Of a DNA stretch of 35,076 nt, positions 4,627-18,474 are shown one piece after another. Position numbers and translations under genes: made by a program. Numbering within the stretch: the stretch's first letter is position 1; the number at the start of each line of letters is the position of its first letter. A model generated the notes under the pieces. It saw only the letters and a program-made list of their open reading frames with translations. It did not search any database and was not told where the DNA came from. Source of the stretch: Planctomycetota bacterium (GTDB lineage: Bacteria; Planctomycetota; MHYJ01; JACPRB01); contig JACPRB010000306.1 of NCBI GenBank assembly GCA_016190155.1, positions 1 through 35,076 on the forward strand, read 5' to 3'.

Positions 4627-5751
4627 CTACCGATCGATCTCGCCCAACACGATATCGATCGACCCCAGGATCGCCACCAGATCCGCGATGAGGACGCCCC
4701 GGGCCATCTCCGGCAGCACGCTCAACGTGCAGAAGCTCGGCGCGCGGATCTTCACGCGCACCGGCGTGTCCGCGCCTTCGCTGATGATATAGAAGCCCAG
4801 CTCGCCTCGCGGATTCTCGATGGCGGTGTACGCCTCTCCCTTGGGGACCTTGAATCCGCGCTTGACGTCCGCGCTGAACTTCCCCGGCGGCAATCCGTCC
4901 AGCGCCTGCCGGATGATCCGGCAACTCTGGACCATCTCCTCGATGCGCACCCAGTACCGATTCCAGCAGTCGCCCACCACGCCGATCCCTTCCTTGCCCA
5001 CCGCCACGTCGAACTGGAACTTGTCGTAGCCGCTGTACGGCTCCGCCTTGCGGACGTCCCAATCCACGCCGCTGGCGCGCAGGTTCGGACCGGAGACGCC
5101 CCAGGCGATGCCGAGGTCGGCCGGAATCACCCCGATCCCCTTCGTTCGCGTGATGAAGATCTGGTTGTACGTGAGCAGCTCGTTGTAGTCCTTGAGCCGT
5201 TCGTCGAAGATGTTCAGGAAGTTGTACACCATCTCCGCGAACTTCTTGTCGATGTCCTTCCACACGCCGCCGACGCGGACGTAGTTGTACGTCAGCCGCG
5301 CGCCGCTGGCGTACTCGAACATGTTGAGGATCATCTCGCGCTCGCGGAAGGCGTAGAGAAACGGCGTGAACGCCCCCACGTCCAGCCCGTACGTGCCGAA
5401 CGCCAGCAGGTGCGACGCGATGCGGTTGAGCTCCGCCATGATCACCCGGATGTGCTTGGCGCGCTCGGGGATCTCAGGCTTCAACAGCTTCTCGACGGCC
5501 AACGCGAACGCGAGGTTGTCGCTCATCCCGGACAGATAGTCCATCCGGTCCGTGTATGGGATGTACTGCTCGTAGCGCAGGCTTTCCCCGATCTTCTCCG
5601 CGCACCGGTGCAGGTAGCCGATCACCGGCGTCGCCTCGCTGACCAACTCGCCGTCGGTCCGCACCATCAGGCGCAGCACGCCGTGCGTGGAGGGATGCTG
5701 CGGCCCCATGTTCAGCAGCATGTCCTGGGTTTCAAGATCCTTGACCGGCAT
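4627..5751 (-). CDS. nuoD: NADH-quinone oxidoreductase subunit D
   Basis: This 374-aa protein aligns across its length with the 49-kDa subunit of complex I. It shows the N-terminal LNMGPQHPSTHGVLRL quinone-site loop, then IGYLHRCAEKIGE and YTDRMDYLSGM. It sits in the peripheral arm and helps form the quinone pocket next to cluster N2 of NuoB. The start at 5751 has an AGGAG site about 9 nt upstream, which lies inside the short inserted segment between two copies of the gene's own first ten codons. nuoB precedes it, and nuoC, normally between them, is missing. Nothing in the protein looks damaged. Confidence 0.95.
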   Translation of the reverse strand: MPVKDLETQDMLLNMGPQHPSTHGVLRLMVRTDGELVSEATPVIGYLHRCAEKIGESLRYEQYIPYTDRMDYLSGMSDNLAFALAVEKLLKPEIPERAKHIRVIMAELNRIASHLLAFGTYGLDVGAFTPFLYAFREREMILNMFEYASGARLTYNYVRVGGVWKDIDKKFAEMVYNFLNIFDERLKDYNELLTYNQIFITRTKGIGVIPADLGIAWGVSGPNLRASGVDWDVRKAEPYSGYDKFQFDVAVGKEGIGVVGDCWNRYWVRIEEMVQSCRIIRQALDGLPPGKFSADVKRGFKVPKGEAYTAIENPRGELGFYIISEGADTPVRVKIRAPSFCTLSVLPEMARGVLIADLVAILGSIDIVLGEIDR

Positions 5752-5868: not shown

Positions 5869-6396
5869 TCAGTAGACCGACGAACTCACCACCCGATCCT
5901 TCGCCGGCATCTCCTCGCTCTTGGCCAGCGATTGGCGGCGGATCTTCTCCTGCAGCTTGATGATGCCGTCCAGAAGCGCCTCCGGACGCGGCGGACACCC
6001 CGGCACATAGACGTCCACGGGCACGACCTTGTCCACGCCCTTCACGACGCTGTAGCCGTACTTGTAATACGGACCACCGCCCACCGTGCACGCCCCCATG
6101 GCCAGCACGTACCGCGGCTCCGGCATCTGCTCATAGAGCTGCTTCACCACGAGCGCCATCTTCGCGTTCACCGTGCCGGCGACGATCATGAGATCGCTCT
6201 GCCTCGGCGTGGCGCGTGGAATGACGCCCAACCGGTCCCAATCATAGCGCGACGCAGCCGCCGCCATCATCTCGATGGCGCATCAGGCGATGCCGAAGAG
6301 CATCGGCCAAAGGCTCGACGCCCGCGACCAGTTGACGATCGCGTCGACGCTCGTGATCAGGAGATTCTTTCCGAATCGACCTTCGATCAAGCTCAT
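5869..6396 (-). CDS. nuoB: NADH-quinone oxidoreductase subunit B with in-frame UGA at the first N2-cluster cysteine
   Basis: The ORF track gives only 133 aa from 6270. Reading upstream recovers the family's N-terminus, from ATG at 6396 ([20 protein letters not shown]...[11 protein letters not shown]), then a TGA at 6283-6285, then [14 protein letters not shown]. The full frame is 175 codons, normal for NuoB. The family motif here is G-[LI]-A-C-C-A-[VI]-E-M-M, so the UGA replaces the first of two adjacent cysteines that bind cluster N2. The other ligands are intact (C39, MGAC C103, PGCPP C134), as is the rest. Options are selenocysteine insertion, a nonsense mutation making a pseudogene, or a sequencing error. 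A start at codon 43 would lose two ligands and cannot work. An AGGCGG site precedes the ATG. Confidence 0.85.
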
Positions 6397-6406
6397 AGGG
6401 CCGCCT

Positions 6407-6435
6407 AATATAATGCCACGCTCAAACTTTTACAA
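6407..6435 (-). promoter_or_regulatory. Possible sigma70-type promoter for nuoB
   Basis: On the minus strand, TTGTAA and TATATT are separated by 17 nt, and TATATT lies 10 nt before the nuoB ATG. The -35 element matches the consensus at 4 of 6 positions and the -10 at 5 of 6. The site lies within and just after the end of the RicT-Rieske gene. The local A+T richness is unusual for this window. Confidence 0.35.
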
Positions 6436-7702
6436 ATATCTGCCCGTTCTCGACCTTGCATTCGAGCGTGAACAGCCGCGAGGGCCCGGAAACGCTCTCC
6501 CCCGTGACCACGTCGAATCGCCAGTGGTGCAGAGGACATGTCACGATCGTCCCCTCCAGCGTCCCCTCCGCCAAAGGCGCCCCCTGGTGCGGACAGGCCC
6601 CCTCCGTCGCGTAGATCGTCCCGTTGACCTTGAAGAGGGCGATCTGCCGCCCGGCGATCTCAAACGACCGGCCCCGCCCCTCAGGGACGTCTTCCACCTT
6701 GGCGACGGCCGTGAAGTCCACCGCCGGCGGCGGCTCCTCGACGTGAACCGTCGGAATGGTCTTCGTCTCCTCCAACGACGGCTCCGGTGGTTCCGAGGGC
6801 CCGGCTCCGCCGTCGGCCTTGGGCGCGGCACACCCCCGGCAGCCGGCCGCGGTCTTGGGCGCCCCGACGATGTCTTCGAAACCGACCACGACCCGCTCCT
6901 CGGACCCCTCAGGCACGATGGTCACTTCGCGCAGAAGCAGATTCTGGTCCACCACCACGCCGGCCGCCCCCTGGCGCGTCTGGATCCTCGCGCCCCTGGG
7001 AGGCAGCAGATCCCGCGCCTCGCCGTAGGCCACATACTCGTAACGCAGGCAGCACAAGAGCTTCCCGCATCGGCCCGTGATCTTCGACGGATCCGCCGTG
7101 TGCTTCTGGATCTTCGCCATGTCCATCGTGATACCGCCCAGATCCTTGAGCAGCCCGCGGCAGCACAGCTCCAGTCCACAATGCCCGCAATCGCCCACCA
7201 GACGAGCCTCGTCGCGCGCCCCCACCTGCTTCAGCTCGATGCGACAACGAAACTCGTGCGCGAGCCTCCGCACGAGCTCGCGGAAGTCGACGCGCGTCTC
7301 CGACACGAAATAGACGACCACGCGCTCGCCGCCGAAGAGATGATCGAGCTCGACGACCTTCATCGGGAGATTGAGCTTCTTCACCTCCTCCCTCGCGTAT
7401 TGGATCTGGCGCGCGCGCGTCTCGCGACCGATGCGTTCGGCGTTGCGAAGATCGTCGGGCGAAGCCCTCCGGAGCAGATCGCCCAAACCGTCGGACGACG
7501 CCGCCTCCGAAAGGAGCTCCAGCGACGTCAACACGGTTCCGAGCTCCCGGCCGCGATCCGTCCGCACGATGCACCGGTCCCGCTGCTTGACCAGTCCTTC
7601 GCGGTCGGTCTTGAATCGGCTCACATAGGCCATCTTCCCGTAGCGCACGGTCGCGCAGTAGAGCGCGCGCTTCGCCTGTACCGTTCGTGGATCTCCCGCC
7701 AT
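6422..7702 (-). CDS. RicT/YaaT (PSP1) protein fused to a C-terminal Rieske [2Fe-2S] domain
   Basis: The 544-aa ORF in the track overlaps ispG. The likely start is ATG 7702, 5 nt after the ispG stop, with an AGGGG site formed by the ispG stop region, giving 426 aa. Residues about 12-280 are a PSP1/RicT domain with its cysteine set (CGHCGLELCC 172-181, RCGKLLCC 212-218). In B. subtilis RicT works with RicA and RicF in RNA maturation and carries Fe-S clusters. After a Pro/Glu linker (281-330), residues 331-426 are a Rieske-type domain with both ligand pairs, CPH (370-372) and CPLHH (389-393). B. subtilis RicT has no such extension. No signal or membrane segment is seen, so the protein should be cytoplasmic. 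Confidence 0.9.
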   Translation of the reverse strand: MAGDPRTVQAKRALYCATVRYGKMAYVSRFKTDREGLVKQRDRCIVRTDRGRELGTVLTSLELLSEAASSDGLGDLLRRASPDDLRNAERIGRETRARQIQYAREEVKKLNLPMKVVELDHLFGGERVVVYFVSETRVDFRELVRRLAHEFRCRIELKQVGARDEARLVGDCGHCGLELCCRGLLKDLGGITMDMAKIQKHTADPSKITGRCGKLLCCLRYEYVAYGEARDLLPPRGARIQTRQGAAGVVVDQNLLLREVTIVPEGSEERVVVGFEDIVGAPKTAAGCRGCAAPKADGGAGPSEPPEPSLEETKTIPTVHVEEPPPAVDFTAVAKVEDVPEGRGRSFEIAGRQIALFKVNGTIYATEGACPHQGAPLAEGTLEGTIVTCPLHHWRFDVVTGESVSGPSRLFTLECKVENGQIFVKV

Positions 7703-7707
7703 CGGAC

Positions 7708-8820
7708 TCACCCCTGCATCGCTGATGCCGCACGTTGCGCCGCCAGACGCCGAATCTCCTTCTCCAGCTCGTCGACCATGTCGCACTCTCTCACGCGCCG
7801 GAGTTCCTTCCCTTCCCGAAAGATGACGCCCCGCTCTTTCTCTCCGGCCACGCCGATGTCCGCCTCGGCCGCCTCGCCGGGTCCGTTGACCGCGCATCCC
7901 AGGATCGAGATCCGGATCGGGACCTTGACATCCTTGATGCGCTCCTTCACCTCGTTGACGATCTTCTCCAGATCGATCTGAATGCGCCCGCACGCCGGGC
8001 AAGCGACGATCTCGGGCTCGCGCACCCGCCGGCCCGTCGCCTTCAGGATGTCCCACGCCGCCTGCACCTCGAGCGCCTTATCTCCCGTCAGCGATACTCG
8101 AATCGTGTCCCCGATCCCGTCGCATAGGAGCGAGCCGATGCCGACCGCGCTCTTGATCGCGCCGTACCCGGGAAGGCCCGCTTCCGTCACGCCCAGATGC
8201 GAAGGAACGTCGGAGATCTCGGCCCACCGGCGATAGCTCTCGATCATCCACGACGTCGTCGTGGATTTCAGCGACACGACGATGTCCCGGAATCCGATCG
8301 ACTCGAGAAACTCGCAGTGACGTCGCGCGCTCTCGACCATCGCCTCGGGCCGCGGACTGCCGTACTTCTCCAAGAGGTCCTTCTCGACCGAGCCGGAGTT
8401 GACCCCGACCCGCATCGAGACGCCTTTCTTCCGGGCGGCCTCGGCCACGAGCCGAACCCGCTCGCGACCCACCGTGTCGAACGTACCCGCCAGTCCCGCG
8501 ATGTTCCCCGGATTCAGCCTGATCTTGTCGACCCCCTGCTCGATGGCCGTCAGCGCGAACTTGTAGTTGAAATGGATGTCGGCCACGAGGGGGACGGGAC
8601 CCAGAAACCCCTTGACCGCGCCGACCGCCTCGGCGTCCGCTTGGTCAAAGACCGCCACACGGACGATTTCGCACGCCGCATCCAACATCCGCCGGACTTC
8701 GGCCTTCGTCGCCTCCACATCGGAGGTCTTCGTGGTGGTCAACGACTGGACCCAAATGGGATTCTCGCCTCCGACGACGAGCTTCCCGCAAGGGACTTCA
8801 CGGGTCCTATGACGCTTCAT
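7708..8820 (-). CDS. ispG: 4-hydroxy-3-methylbut-2-en-1-yl diphosphate synthase (flavodoxin/ferredoxin)
   Basis: This 370-aa protein matches IspG/GcpE, the [4Fe-4S] enzyme converting MEcPP to HMBPP in the non-mevalonate isoprenoid pathway. Visible features are the TIM-barrel start (VGGENPIWVQSLTTTKT), LVADIHFNYKFALTAIEQG, KIRLNPGNIAG and the C-terminal cluster ligands in CPACGR and LGCAVNGPGEA. The length is that of the short bacterial form. The start at 8820 has no strong Shine-Dalgarno. It heads a minus-strand run with the RicT-Rieske gene and nuoB, all three being Fe-S proteins. Confidence 0.95.
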   Translation of the reverse strand: MKRHRTREVPCGKLVVGGENPIWVQSLTTTKTSDVEATKAEVRRMLDAACEIVRVAVFDQADAEAVGAVKGFLGPVPLVADIHFNYKFALTAIEQGVDKIRLNPGNIAGLAGTFDTVGRERVRLVAEAARKKGVSMRVGVNSGSVEKDLLEKYGSPRPEAMVESARRHCEFLESIGFRDIVVSLKSTTTSWMIESYRRWAEISDVPSHLGVTEAGLPGYGAIKSAVGIGSLLCDGIGDTIRVSLTGDKALEVQAAWDILKATGRRVREPEIVACPACGRIQIDLEKIVNEVKERIKDVKVPIRISILGCAVNGPGEAAEADIGVAGEKERGVIFREGKELRRVRECDMVDELEKEIRRLAAQRAASAMQG

Positions 8821-8875: not shown

Positions 8876-9142
8876 CTACCGGACCGCCTTGCACACGATC
8901 AGGTACCGAGCGGGCAATTCCGGTCCCGCAGGTTCGAAACTCTCGAACTCCCAGCCCGCCTTCTCCATGGCCCGCAGGTAGTCCGGAACCTCCTCGAACT
9001 CCAAGGGCGCGCTCACCACGCGCTCCGGATGGGCCCGCGGCAATCGCGCGTCGCTGACGGCCGATTCCATCCTCCGCCAATCGGGTTCCACGTGGCATCC
9101 CAAGGCGACCACCATTCCCACGGCGACCAATACATTTTTCAT
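8876..9142 (-). CDS. Small putative lipoprotein
   Basis: The track lists 110 aa, but the internal ATG at 9142 gives an 88-aa protein that starts with a clean lipoprotein signal (MKNVLVAVGMVVALGC), so that start is preferred. The mature part has no recognised domain. The C-terminal half (LRAMEKAGWEFESFEP...ARYLIVCKAVR) looks like a small alpha/beta fold, as seen in short DUF-type 'how-well-did-it-change' domains. It is divergent from the kinase gene and follows no other gene closely. Confidence 0.65.
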   Translation of the reverse strand: MKNVLVAVGMVVALGCHVEPDWRRMESAVSDARLPRAHPERVVSAPLEFEEVPDYLRAMEKAGWEFESFEPAGPELPARYLIVCKAVR

Positions 9143-9230
9143 GGCGATTCCGCTGGCTCCCGCTCCCACGTTTGGGGGATCATATAATGCGGACGAACGG
9201 CGGCGCAATCTCCCTGCGAGGATTCCGCCC

Positions 9231-14265: not shown

Positions 14266-17200
14266 TCACGGTTTCGACTGCGCCTCTCTCGCCTCCGCCA
14301 GCCAGCCCTCGACCCAGCTTCGGTAAACCCAATCCGGAGACGCCGCATTCAAGGACGCCTCGAGGTCCGCGATCGCCCCGACGAGATCCCCCTGCAGATG
14401 CTTCACGCGTCCTCGATTCCCGAGGGCCGCTTCGAGATTCGGCTGACGCAGCAGAGCTTGATCGTAGTCTTCCCTCGCCCCGGCCAAGTCCTCCATGTCC
14501 TGCTTCGCCAATCCTCGCTGGAAGTACGCCGCCGCCGAGTCCCCATCGAGCTCGATCGCCCGCGTGCAATCGGCGATGGCCTCCTGGTATTCCTTCCGCT
14601 CCTGACGCGCCAGCGCCCGCTGGATATAAGCGTTGACGTACCCCTTCCTGATTTCCAAAGCCCGCGTGCAATCCTCCAGCGCTCCGGCGAAGTCCTTGCG
14701 GTCGTGCCTGATCACGGCACGGCCGACGTACATCTCGGCACGGTTCGGATCCATGGCAACTGCGCGATCGTAATCCTCCACTGCGGCCTCTAAGTCGCCT
14801 CGCAGATACTTCGCATTTCCCCGCTCGGCGAATACTCTGGGATCGCTCGTTTTCAACGCGATCGCCTGATCCAGATCCGCAATCGCCCCCGCCGTATCCC
14901 CTTGTTGGCTCCTGACCACCCCCCGATAAGCGTACGCCATGCCGAAGCGAGGCCGGATCTCCACCGCCCGCGTGAAATCGGCCTTCGCCTCCGACAGATT
15001 CTTACGATACCACCGGATAAGCCCCCTCTGGTAGTAAGCCGCAGCGCAGCCGGGGTCCGCCTCGATCGCACGCTCGCCGTCGGCAATCGCGCCGCCCATG
15101 TCCCCCATGGCCTGCTTCGCTTCGGAACGGCGAATGTACGCCGGAGCGTACCCCTTGCGCGCCTCGCCCGCCCGCGTGTAATCCTCGATCGCCCCGGAGA
15201 AATCGCGCCGAGCGACCTTGGAATTGCCCCGCTCCAGATACGCCTCCGCGAAGTCCCCCTTGAGCTCGATGGCCCGATCCAGATCGGCCGCCGCTCCGGC
15301 GTGATCCCCGCGCGCGGCCCTGGCCGTCGCCCGAAGATAATAATCGTGCGCCTCCCGCGCGTCCCGCTCGATCGCCACGTCCAGCAGCGCAAGCGCGCGA
15401 CAGACGTCCGCGCGCGCCTCATCGAGTTCCCCGATCTCATGCCGACATCGCGCCCGGCCCAGAAAAGCCTCCCCCAGGTCCTTCCGGAACGCGATCGCGC
15501 GGTCGTACTCGGCGATCGCCCCCGTCCAATCGAACTCGTCCTGCTTGGCGCGCCCTCGTTCAAGACTCGCCTGCGCCTGCCGCGCGCGTTCCGCGCGGAT
15601 CTCCTCGGCCCGCTCGCGATCCGCCGCGCCCCCCTTGGAGTCGCCCAAGGCTCGCCCCCGCGCCTCATACGCCTCCGCGAAATCGCCCTGCAGCTCGATC
15701 GCGCGGCTGAAATCCGCGACCGCTCCAGCCAAGTCGCCTCGTTCGATCTTGGCCAAGCCGCGATCGTAGTGGACGTCGGCTCGCCCGTTCTCCAGTCGAA
15801 TCGCCCGATCGAAATCCGCGATCGCCCGATCGATCTCCTTGGACGCCGACCTCGCCCGACCACGTCCCACATAGGCCGCCGCCAGATCCTCCTGGAGCTC
15901 CAGAGCGCGGTCGAAATCGACCACGGCTCCGACCATGTCTCCCTGCTTCCGCTTCGCTTCTCCGCGCAAGCGATACGCCTCCGCCCACGAGCCGTCCCCT
16001 TCGATGGCTTGATCGAAATCGGCCACGGCTCCGACCGAATCGCCCAACTCCAGCCTCACCTTCCCCCGACCACGGTGAACGCGCGGGGACCGCTCGTTCA
16101 ATTCGACGGCCTCGTCGTAGTCGGCCAGAGCCCCGCCCAGGAAACCCAGGGCATATTCTGCCTCAGCCCGAACCGCGTAGCCTTCTCCGAAACCAGCATC
16201 GATCGACAACGCCTCGTCATACTCCGCGATCGCGCCGACAAAATCCCCTGCTTCAGCCTTGGTGCGTCCCTGCGCCACATGCAGTCTCTTCCTCACCTCC
16301 AGCCGCAGGCGTCGAACTTCCTCGCCGCCTTCGCTGAACTGAATCGCCAGATCCAGATCCGCCAGCGCCGCTTGAAGGTCGCCCAGGGACGAGCGCGCCT
16401 TCGCGCGGGCCACGTAGGCTTCCGTGAAACTCGCCCGCAGCTGAATGGCCTGGTCGAACTCCGCCAGCGCCCCGGCCATGTCGCCCGCCGCCTGCTTGGC
16501 CAATCCGCGTTCCAGAACCTCCCGGGCGCTGTTCGACGCCAACTCGTTCTTCACGCCGGCCAGACGCCCCTGGACCCATCCTCGCTCCGGCCAATCCGTC
16601 GGAGCGCGCCTCAAGGCCAGCTCGAAATCCGCGACGGCCCCGTTCAGGTCGCGCAGAGCCTGGCGGGCGATCCCTCGACGGTAATGAGCCTCGACGTAGT
16701 CGGTCCGGAGGTCGATGGCGCGGCTGAAAGACTCGATCGCCGCTTGAAGGTTGTTCTGATCCTGGTACGCCAGCCCGCAATGGTAGCGAGCCTCCGCGGA
16801 ACTCCCGTCGAGCTCCACGGACCGCTCCATATCGGCGACGGCCCCCGCCACGTCCCCGACCGCGTGCTTCGCCCGCCCGCGGTCGAGATAAACGGCCGGA
16901 TCATCTTGCTTGAGCTCGATCGCACGATCGTAGTCGACGATCGCGCCCTTCGGATCCCCGGAGATCTGCCGGATCCGGCCCCGTTCGGCATGAAGCGCCG
17001 CGTCGCCCTCCCGCAGTTCCAGGGCGCGGTCATAAGCCGCCATCGCTCCCGCCATGTCGCCGTTCGCGCATTTGGAGCGGGCTTGTGTCGCGTAACTCAC
17101 CCAGTCATCCTTGATCGGACCCGGCACGGCGAACGTCTTCCTGGGCGAGGGCGCCTTAGACCGTCCATCGTTGGACACCACGAAGGCGATTGACGCCAGG

Positions 17201-18474
17201 AGCAGCATCATGCCGGCTCCGGCCGCCATCCAGAGCGCCTGTCTCGACTTCCTCGCGGCGCCTTTCCCTTTCGAGCGGGACGCGGCCTCGGCCGCCTGGA
17301 CGTACCCATCAAGTTCCTCGGCCAGCGCCGTCGCGCTCTCCTGTCTGCCTTTCGGCTTCTTCTCCAAGGCTCTCAGGCAGATGTCGTTCAGCGCCCGGTC
17401 CACGTGTCGATTGACTTTCCTCGGCGGACGGGGGGAATCATTGAGGATCGCGCGGAACATCTCGGCGAGATTCCGGCCTTGATGGGGCGGCTGCCCGACG
17501 AGCATCTCGTATAGGATGACGCCCAACGCATAGACGTCGGTGCGGGGGGAGATCAGATCCGAGGCCCCCCGGACCTGCTCAGGCGCCATGTACAGCGGCG
17601 TTCCCACCTTGGCGCCGGTCTTCGTCAGAACTTCGGCCGACTGATCCAGGTACGCCAACCCGAAATCCCCAACCTTCGGGACGCCTTTCGCGGTGACGAG
17701 GATGTTCGCCGGCTTGAGGTCGCGGTGGATCACCCCGCGTTCATGCGCGACGCCCACGCCTCGCGCCACCTGTCCCACCAGCAGGGACGCCTCACGCGGG
17801 TGGAATTGCTTCTCCGTCAGGAGGTCGTTCAACGAACGACCTTGAACGAGTTCCATCACCAAGAAGGTGCGTCCGCCCACCTGTCCCAGGTCGTACAGGG
17901 AGATGAGATTGGGGTGGGAGAGTCCGGCCAGGACGTGCGCTTCGCGCTGGAACCGCTGGCGGCTCGACGGCTTGAGCGCGAATGCAACGCTCATGACTTT
18001 GATCGCGACGAACCTCTCCAGCAACGGGTCCCACGCCCGATACACCGTCGACTGCCCGCCGTCTCCGATCTTCTCGCGAATCTCGTAGCGGTCGAGCTTC
18101 GGAGGGATGTCCGCCGGAGGCGTCACGGGGGCCGGGGTCGCCTGACGGTCCTGCAGGAGGCGGGTCAGGTTCTCGATCTGCTGCGGCGAGAGGCCATCCT
18201 TGCGCGCCAGCAAGTGGCCGAGTCCCGGCAGAGGCGAGACCCCCTGTTTGGAGAGGCGAGCGATCGCCGCCAGGCATTCGTCCACCTGCTCGCGGCTGCA
18301 GATGCCTTGAGACACGACGAGTTCCGCCAGGGAGGCGTCCTCGTCCGGAACCCGAGAATCCCTTCGCTGCGGCTGCACGTCGACTTCAATTGTACCTGAT
18401 CTGCCGTGTCCGAAAAGCCTGTCGACTACTTCCTGAACGGTTCCGGACGGGAGGCCCCGTGCTTCGCCCGGCAT
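14266..18474 (-). CDS. Transmembrane Ser/Thr kinase with about 26 C-terminal TPR repeats
   Basis: This is a 1402-aa protein. Residues about 45-112 are the helical module also found in the 9.2-kb kinase. Residues 130-390 are a complete Hanks-type kinase (GDGGQSTVY loop, K159, HRDLKPAN 250-257, DFG 270-272, APE 297-299). One membrane helix lies at about 412-434. The remaining 950 residues are roughly 26 tandem TPR units with the core GDxxGAIADYDRAIEL, predicted outside the cytoplasm. TPRs bind proteins, so this looks like a receptor kinase sensing or assembling an exported complex. The ATG at 18474 overlaps the upstream gene by 49 bp; GTG 18378 is an alternative start. The long antisense ORFs are shadows of the repeats. 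Confidence 0.9.
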   Translation of the reverse strand: MPGEARGLPSGTVQEVVDRLFGHGRSGTIEVDVQPQRRDSRVPDEDASLAELVVSQGICSREQVDECLAAIARLSKQGVSPLPGLGHLLARKDGLSPQQIENLTRLLQDRQATPAPVTPPADIPPKLDRYEIREKIGDGGQSTVYRAWDPLLERFVAIKVMSVAFALKPSSRQRFQREAHVLAGLSHPNLISLYDLGQVGGRTFLVMELVQGRSLNDLLTEKQFHPREASLLVGQVARGVGVAHERGVIHRDLKPANILVTAKGVPKVGDFGLAYLDQSAEVLTKTGAKVGTPLYMAPEQVRGASDLISPRTDVYALGVILYEMLVGQPPHQGRNLAEMFRAILNDSPRPPRKVNRHVDRALNDICLRALEKKPKGRQESATALAEELDGYVQAAEAASRSKGKGAARKSRQALWMAAGAGMMLLLASIAFVVSNDGRSKAPSPRKTFAVPGPIKDDWVSYATQARSKCANGDMAGAMAAYDRALELREGDAALHAERGRIRQISGDPKGAIVDYDRAIELKQDDPAVYLDRGRAKHAVGDVAGAVADMERSVELDGSSAEARYHCGLAYQDQNNLQAAIESFSRAIDLRTDYVEAHYRRGIARQALRDLNGAVADFELALRRAPTDWPERGWVQGRLAGVKNELASNSAREVLERGLAKQAAGDMAGALAEFDQAIQLRASFTEAYVARAKARSSLGDLQAALADLDLAIQFSEGGEEVRRLRLEVRKRLHVAQGRTKAEAGDFVGAIAEYDEALSIDAGFGEGYAVRAEAEYALGFLGGALADYDEAVELNERSPRVHRGRGKVRLELGDSVGAVADFDQAIEGDGSWAEAYRLRGEAKRKQGDMVGAVVDFDRALELQEDLAAAYVGRGRARSASKEIDRAIADFDRAIRLENGRADVHYDRGLAKIERGDLAGAVADFSRAIELQGDFAEAYEARGRALGDSKGGAADRERAEEIRAERARQAQASLERGRAKQDEFDWTGAIAEYDRAIAFRKDLGEAFLGRARCRHEIGELDEARADVCRALALLDVAIERDAREAHDYYLRATARAARGDHAGAAADLDRAIELKGDFAEAYLERGNSKVARRDFSGAIEDYTRAGEARKGYAPAYIRRSEAKQAMGDMGGAIADGERAIEADPGCAAAYYQRGLIRWYRKNLSEAKADFTRAVEIRPRFGMAYAYRGVVRSQQGDTAGAIADLDQAIALKTSDPRVFAERGNAKYLRGDLEAAVEDYDRAVAMDPNRAEMYVGRAVIRHDRKDFAGALEDCTRALEIRKGYVNAYIQRALARQERKEYQEAIADCTRAIELDGDSAAAYFQRGLAKQDMEDLAGAREDYDQALLRQPNLEAALGNRGRVKHLQGDLVGAIADLEASLNAASPDWVYRSWVEGWLAEAREAQSKP

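Follow-up and report, generated by a model that had tools for sequence, protein, structure and literature searches.

The closest described system is the RicT protein (YaaT) of Bacillus subtilis, a component of the RicAFT complex, or Y-complex. Its [4Fe-4S] cluster is held by C161, C166, C198 and C203, and C167 helps to hold a second cluster together with RicA and RicF (PMC6751060). Fe-S clusters are needed for the complex of RicT with RNase Y, and in Bacillus the binding of RicT to RNase Y requires RicA and RicF (PMC10470536). A 2017 paper cited in PMC10470536 proposes, to judge from its title, a possible response of the complex to redox changes. The functional studies of RicT found in the literature all concern Firmicutes, and none was found outside this group.

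The window, a stretch of 35,076 nucleotides from a Planctomycetota genome, contains a gene in which a RicT domain is followed by a Rieske domain. The features of this gene are listed below (aa, positions in the encoded protein).

6422..7702, minus strand: ricT-Rieske fusion gene, 426 aa, a single open frame from ATG, with full-length homologues in four further genera
6854..7663, minus strand: RicT/PSP1 domain, aa 14-283, matched by NF041131 and folded in the model
7049..7180, minus strand: six RicT cysteines C175, C180, C181, C212, C217 and C218, the RicT Fe-S site, invariant
6830..6844, minus strand: GCxGC motif (C288, C291), which opens the linker immediately behind the RicT domain and does not vary among the five fused proteins
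6719..6853, minus strand: linker, aa 284-328, pLDDT below 50 at 286-324, 26-59% identity
6425..6718, minus strand: ferredoxin-type Rieske [2Fe-2S] domain, aa 329-426, PF00355, Foldseek match to 5bok
6587..6595, minus strand: first Rieske ligand pair, C370-P-H372, invariant in all five fused proteins
6527..6538, minus strand: second Rieske ligand pair, C389-P-L-H392, with C and H invariant in all five fused proteins

The N-terminal part belongs to the RicT family. The RicT_YaaT_fam model (NF041131) matches aa 43-254 with 209.5 bits against a cut-off of 70, and PSP1 matches aa 76-160 (3.7e-24; 85.3 bits, cut-off 27). The C-terminal part is a Rieske domain, as seen from its PF00355 match (aa 331-408; 69.6 bits, 2.2e-19), the 2Cys-2His ligand set CxH...CxxH, and the Rieske fold of the AlphaFold2 model recognised by Foldseek. 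The original prediction of one 426-aa frame with the full RicT cysteine set and both Rieske ligand pairs is confirmed, and this architecture is conserved in five genera. Across 50 aligned sequences, five fused and 45 unfused, the six RicT cysteines never vary, and their spacing is identical to that of C161, C166, C167, C198, C203 and C204 in B. subtilis (PMC6751060). All ten metal-ligand positions and the GCxGC motif are invariant in the fused family. This motif was not found at the corresponding place in unfused RicT relatives and is specific to the fused family. RicT proteins of the Flavobacteria type (L058-L090) have a similar extra cysteine pair, CGxC, within the N-terminus MACGxCG, whereas the GCxGC of the fused family lies towards the other end of the chain.

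An AlphaFold2 model built from five sequences reached a pLDDT of 55, too low for use. With 70 rows the model reached pLDDT 84.6 and pTM 0.56, and it consists of two well-folded domains with a disordered linker at aa 286-324; at this pTM it gives no reliable packing of one domain against the other. Blocks within the Rieske part (aa 331-426) exceed pLDDT 90. The cysteine region, aa 175-218, is modelled at lower confidence, as expected because the cluster is absent from the model. The best PDB match of the Rieske half in Foldseek is 5bok (TM 0.91, target-normalised; E 1.2e-10; 39% identity), and the 50 matches listed are solely Rieske structures, with nothing for the RicT part. Two confidently modelled domains on a disordered tether would suit electron exchange.

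The Rieske part evolves faster than the RicT part, with identities of 40-53% and 63-74%, respectively. The pN/pS ratio of the Rieske part is 0.45-0.78, which are upper values because synonymous sites are near saturation, and with the ligands fixed this corresponds to purifying selection. Origin of the fused domain by recent duplication of a free-standing Rieske protein of the same family was considered and is unsupported, as the four such proteins group apart (99/98). The Rieske tree, with 100 columns, is too short to place the source of the fused domain.

The search for PSP1 and Rieske domains in one protein, suggested with the original prediction, found the full-length fusion in all five sampled genomes of the window's GTDB family. 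These represent five genera, with 56-63% identity to the window protein, and are separately assembled MAGs of 64-99% completeness. The three relatives with GTDB-derived names are all MAGs of Planctomycetota, and groundwater is the source of at least two. Outside the family, RicT was found at E 1e-20 or better in about 170 of the 294 Planctomycetota genomes searched, in dozens of families; the 177 matched genomes include a few that match by a Rieske protein only. Among the matches listed, which stop short of the lowest-scoring ones, none from outside the family extends through the Rieske part. In a second phylum RicT is present in 183 of 198 genomes, with Rieske in none of those itemised. A non-exhaustive scan of 85,462 species genomes with two peptide patterns ranked only the window's family as fused. 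Since the fusion is confined to this family among the Planctomycetota and second-phylum genomes searched, it is an innovation of one family that probably arose in one event. Relatives with two separate genes, which had been considered as evidence against the fusion, do not exist within the family, as none of the five genomes has a separate RicT; the sampled outgroups do all have RicT without Rieske, which is just what a single fusion event would predict. The original prediction named no earlier description of the fusion, and a literature search that covered few subscription papers found none combining a RicT or PSP1 domain with Rieske.

Candidate RicA or RicF genes (PF06133) scored above the cut-off in none of the five family genomes. 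The same search recovers B. subtilis. Placement of the fused proteins in RicAFT is therefore unsupported. The absence rests on the five genomes jointly, because each is an incomplete MAG. A weak YlbF-like match in G000 was rejected as RicA or RicF, being a coiled coil without cysteine. Unfused RicT relatives in the phylum are mostly without RicA and RicF too (G007 is an exception). One Bacteroides control genome, from the same phylum as Flavobacteria, has no YlbF-family match. RNase Y is encoded in all five family genomes and in every genome searched. The search for ricA and ricF homologues had been proposed together with the idea of an electron donor or redox input built into the complex; this wording is unsupported and has to be changed, because RicA and RicF are undetected. 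The fusion is to be read as a RicT without its known partners, rather than as part of a Ric complex.

The fusion gene occupies an operon-like position between ispG and nuoB. These two neighbours and nuoD, listed below, encode redox enzymes, two of which carry Fe-S clusters.

7708..8820, minus strand: ispG (gcpE), immediately upstream of the fusion gene with a gap of 5 nt, TIGR00612/PF04551
5869..6396, minus strand: nuoB, immediately downstream of the fusion gene, with an in-frame TGA at 6283-6285
4627..5751, minus strand: nuoD, TIGR01962, 489.5 bits, over the cut-off

The ATG of the fusion gene is preceded by GGGGTGA, and the ispG stop lies 5 nt before. The ispG gene adjoins the fusion upstream in all five family genomes, and in two of the others the genes overlap by 4 nt; in four of the five, nuoB is directly downstream. 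Neither gene adjoins ricT at 15 unfused loci, within flanks of about 1.5 kb or less, and thus the fusion and the new address belong to one lineage. A small lipoprotein-like gene with no Pfam match (window 8876-9208, minus strand) is conserved ahead of ispG, in the window and in no fewer than three other genomes of the family. In a related family (G005; L139, 5674-8254), nuoB is preceded by a gene for a Rieske ferredoxin and by sufS- and sufU-like genes, the latter two identified by eye, which again links Rieske proteins and Fe-S assembly with nuoB. Elsewhere in the window, a 1402-aa frame (14266-18474, minus strand) starts with a Ser/Thr kinase domain and contains many TPR repeats.

The TGA codon of the window nuoB takes the exact place of the first cysteine in the tandem pair ligating cluster N2 (GIA-U-CAIEM). 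UGA is present at the identical codon in three genera (the window, G001 and G002), and a fourth has TGC. A second copy was found in G002, on a contig that also carries selD and a peroxiredoxin gene.

G002, contig C10 (L136), 5-307 and 1479-2558: second nuoB copy and selD (TIGR00476, 336 bits)

The second copy has TGC; 177 of 180 nt around the codon are identical, and the upstream sequence differs. It resembles Sec/Cys isoform pairs and could be a paralogue or belong to a second strain in the MAG. A tRNA-Sec with anticodon UCA was found in G000, G002, G003 and G004, and SelB scores above the cut-off in G000, G001, G002 and G003. NuoB was matched in 225 genomes of the phylum, and these include other rows with internal stops. 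Four such loci, with apparent TGA or TAA stops inside the gene, were read and rejected as Sec sites, as they have a Cys codon there.

In each of the three UGA-containing genes a stem of 6 bp capped by a GCUG loop is possible about 24 nt downstream of the UGA, as found by eye; in the window (6249-6264) one of its pairs is G-U instead of the A-U of the other two genes. Such a stem and loop fit the loose rules for bacterial SECIS elements. However, other pairings are favoured by minimum-energy folding, and this stem is also possible in the Cys-codon copy of G002; the SECIS element therefore remains putative. A 2026 catalogue of prokaryotic selenoproteins does not mention NuoB (PMC13188914). Taken together, these findings make NuoB a strong candidate for a new selenoprotein family, with Sec as an Fe-S ligand in complex I.

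We favour, at a little under even odds, a role of the fusion as a redox-responsive RNase Y specificity factor of the RicT family, with a low-potential Rieske ferredoxin domain gained in the family ancestor. The C-terminal domain would have been acquired once, on a flexible linker, by the ancestor of one Planctomycetota family. We infer that the RicT core would hold a [4Fe-4S] cluster on C175, C180, C212 and C217, and that the tethered Rieske domain would exchange electrons with this cluster or else with some redox partner in the cell. RicT would then associate with RNase Y according to the cellular redox state, and the processing of selected transcripts would follow. The GCxGC pair, together with C181 and C218, may supply in cis the ligands of the second cluster that RicA and RicF provide in Bacillus. 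As these two proteins are required in Bacillus and were not found in the family, the partnership with RNase Y may not carry over. On the other hand, since unfused relatives are mostly without RicA and RicF, the Rieske domain does not seem to be needed to compensate for them.

One alternative is that the Rieske domain is mainly a protein-protein interaction or folding module that replaces the bridging by RicA and RicF, with a cluster of structural importance and no redox signalling. This would agree with the missing RicA and RicF, with the co-occurrence of the fusion and the extra cysteine motif in one family, and with the flexible tether of the model. We consider it unlikely, as unfused relatives do without both RicA/RicF and Rieske, and as the 2Cys-2His set is kept while the remaining Rieske domain drifts, a pattern that points to a role for the cluster itself.

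It is similarly improbable that RicT of this family has ceased to act on RNase Y, the fusion having an unrelated Fe-S or redox function. The failure to detect RicA and RicF in the family and the restriction of functional RicT papers to Firmicutes would fit such a change of role, but the RicT sequence, its six cysteines and RNase Y are all retained across the sampled lineages.

The fusion might also be primarily an electron carrier, its Rieske domain serving Fe-S enzymes such as IspG and its RicT part localising or regulating it. The constant adjacency of ispG, the frequent adjacency of nuoB and the dioxygenase-ferredoxin type of the Rieske part point in this direction, and IspG requires reduced ferredoxin or flavodoxin. 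However, with a potential of about -150 mV, Rieske ferredoxins of the low-potential kind are too oxidising to be good donors for IspG, gene adjacency is no proof of electron transfer, and free-standing Rieske proteins are encoded in the family as well, which makes this role quite unlikely.

We give as little credence to a self-contained redox-sensing RicT that acts without RicA and RicF and is tied through its operon to a complex I with Sec-containing NuoB. Each chain would carry up to three putative Fe-S clusters, namely the RicT [4Fe-4S], a second on C181, C218 and GCxGC, and the Rieske [2Fe-2S]; Sec at the N2-cluster ligand of NuoB, encoded in the same operon, would tie transcript processing to the respiratory redox state. 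Finally, the window's genome is a 360-contig MAG, but an assembly error or frameshift joining two genes, the objection raised with the original prediction, has a negligible chance, because the identical fusion is conserved in five separately assembled genomes of five genera.

The fusion makes a possible redox role of RicT directly testable in one natural polypeptide, in a lineage without detectable RicA or RicF. The fusion also shows that RicT has been remodelled outside Firmicutes. The candidate selenoprotein NuoB is possibly the more important result: if true, one of the ligands of the terminal Fe-S cluster in complex I would be a selenocysteine, of which we found no earlier report.

The Rieske part shares CxH...CxxH with dioxygenase Rieske ferredoxins of the HcaC/BphF type and with NirD. 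It matches the PRK09965 and NirD models below their equivalog levels (68.7 versus 113 and 61.1 versus 74.65, respectively). Unlike these proteins, it is fused to RicT, and neither an oxygenase nor a nitrite reductase is among the identified neighbours. Unfused Planctomycetota RicT proteins have the core and the six cysteines in common with the fusion, mostly at 35-50% identity; they have no Rieske domain, and the similarity stops near fusion residue 280, where they end or continue into an unrelated tail. With B. subtilis RicT the fusion shares the PSP1 core, the CxxxxCC...CxxxxCC spacing and the presence of RNase Y in the genome. In contrast to the B. subtilis protein, it has no detected RicA or RicF, adds the GCxGC motif and a C-terminal Rieske domain, and is encoded between ispG and nuoB.
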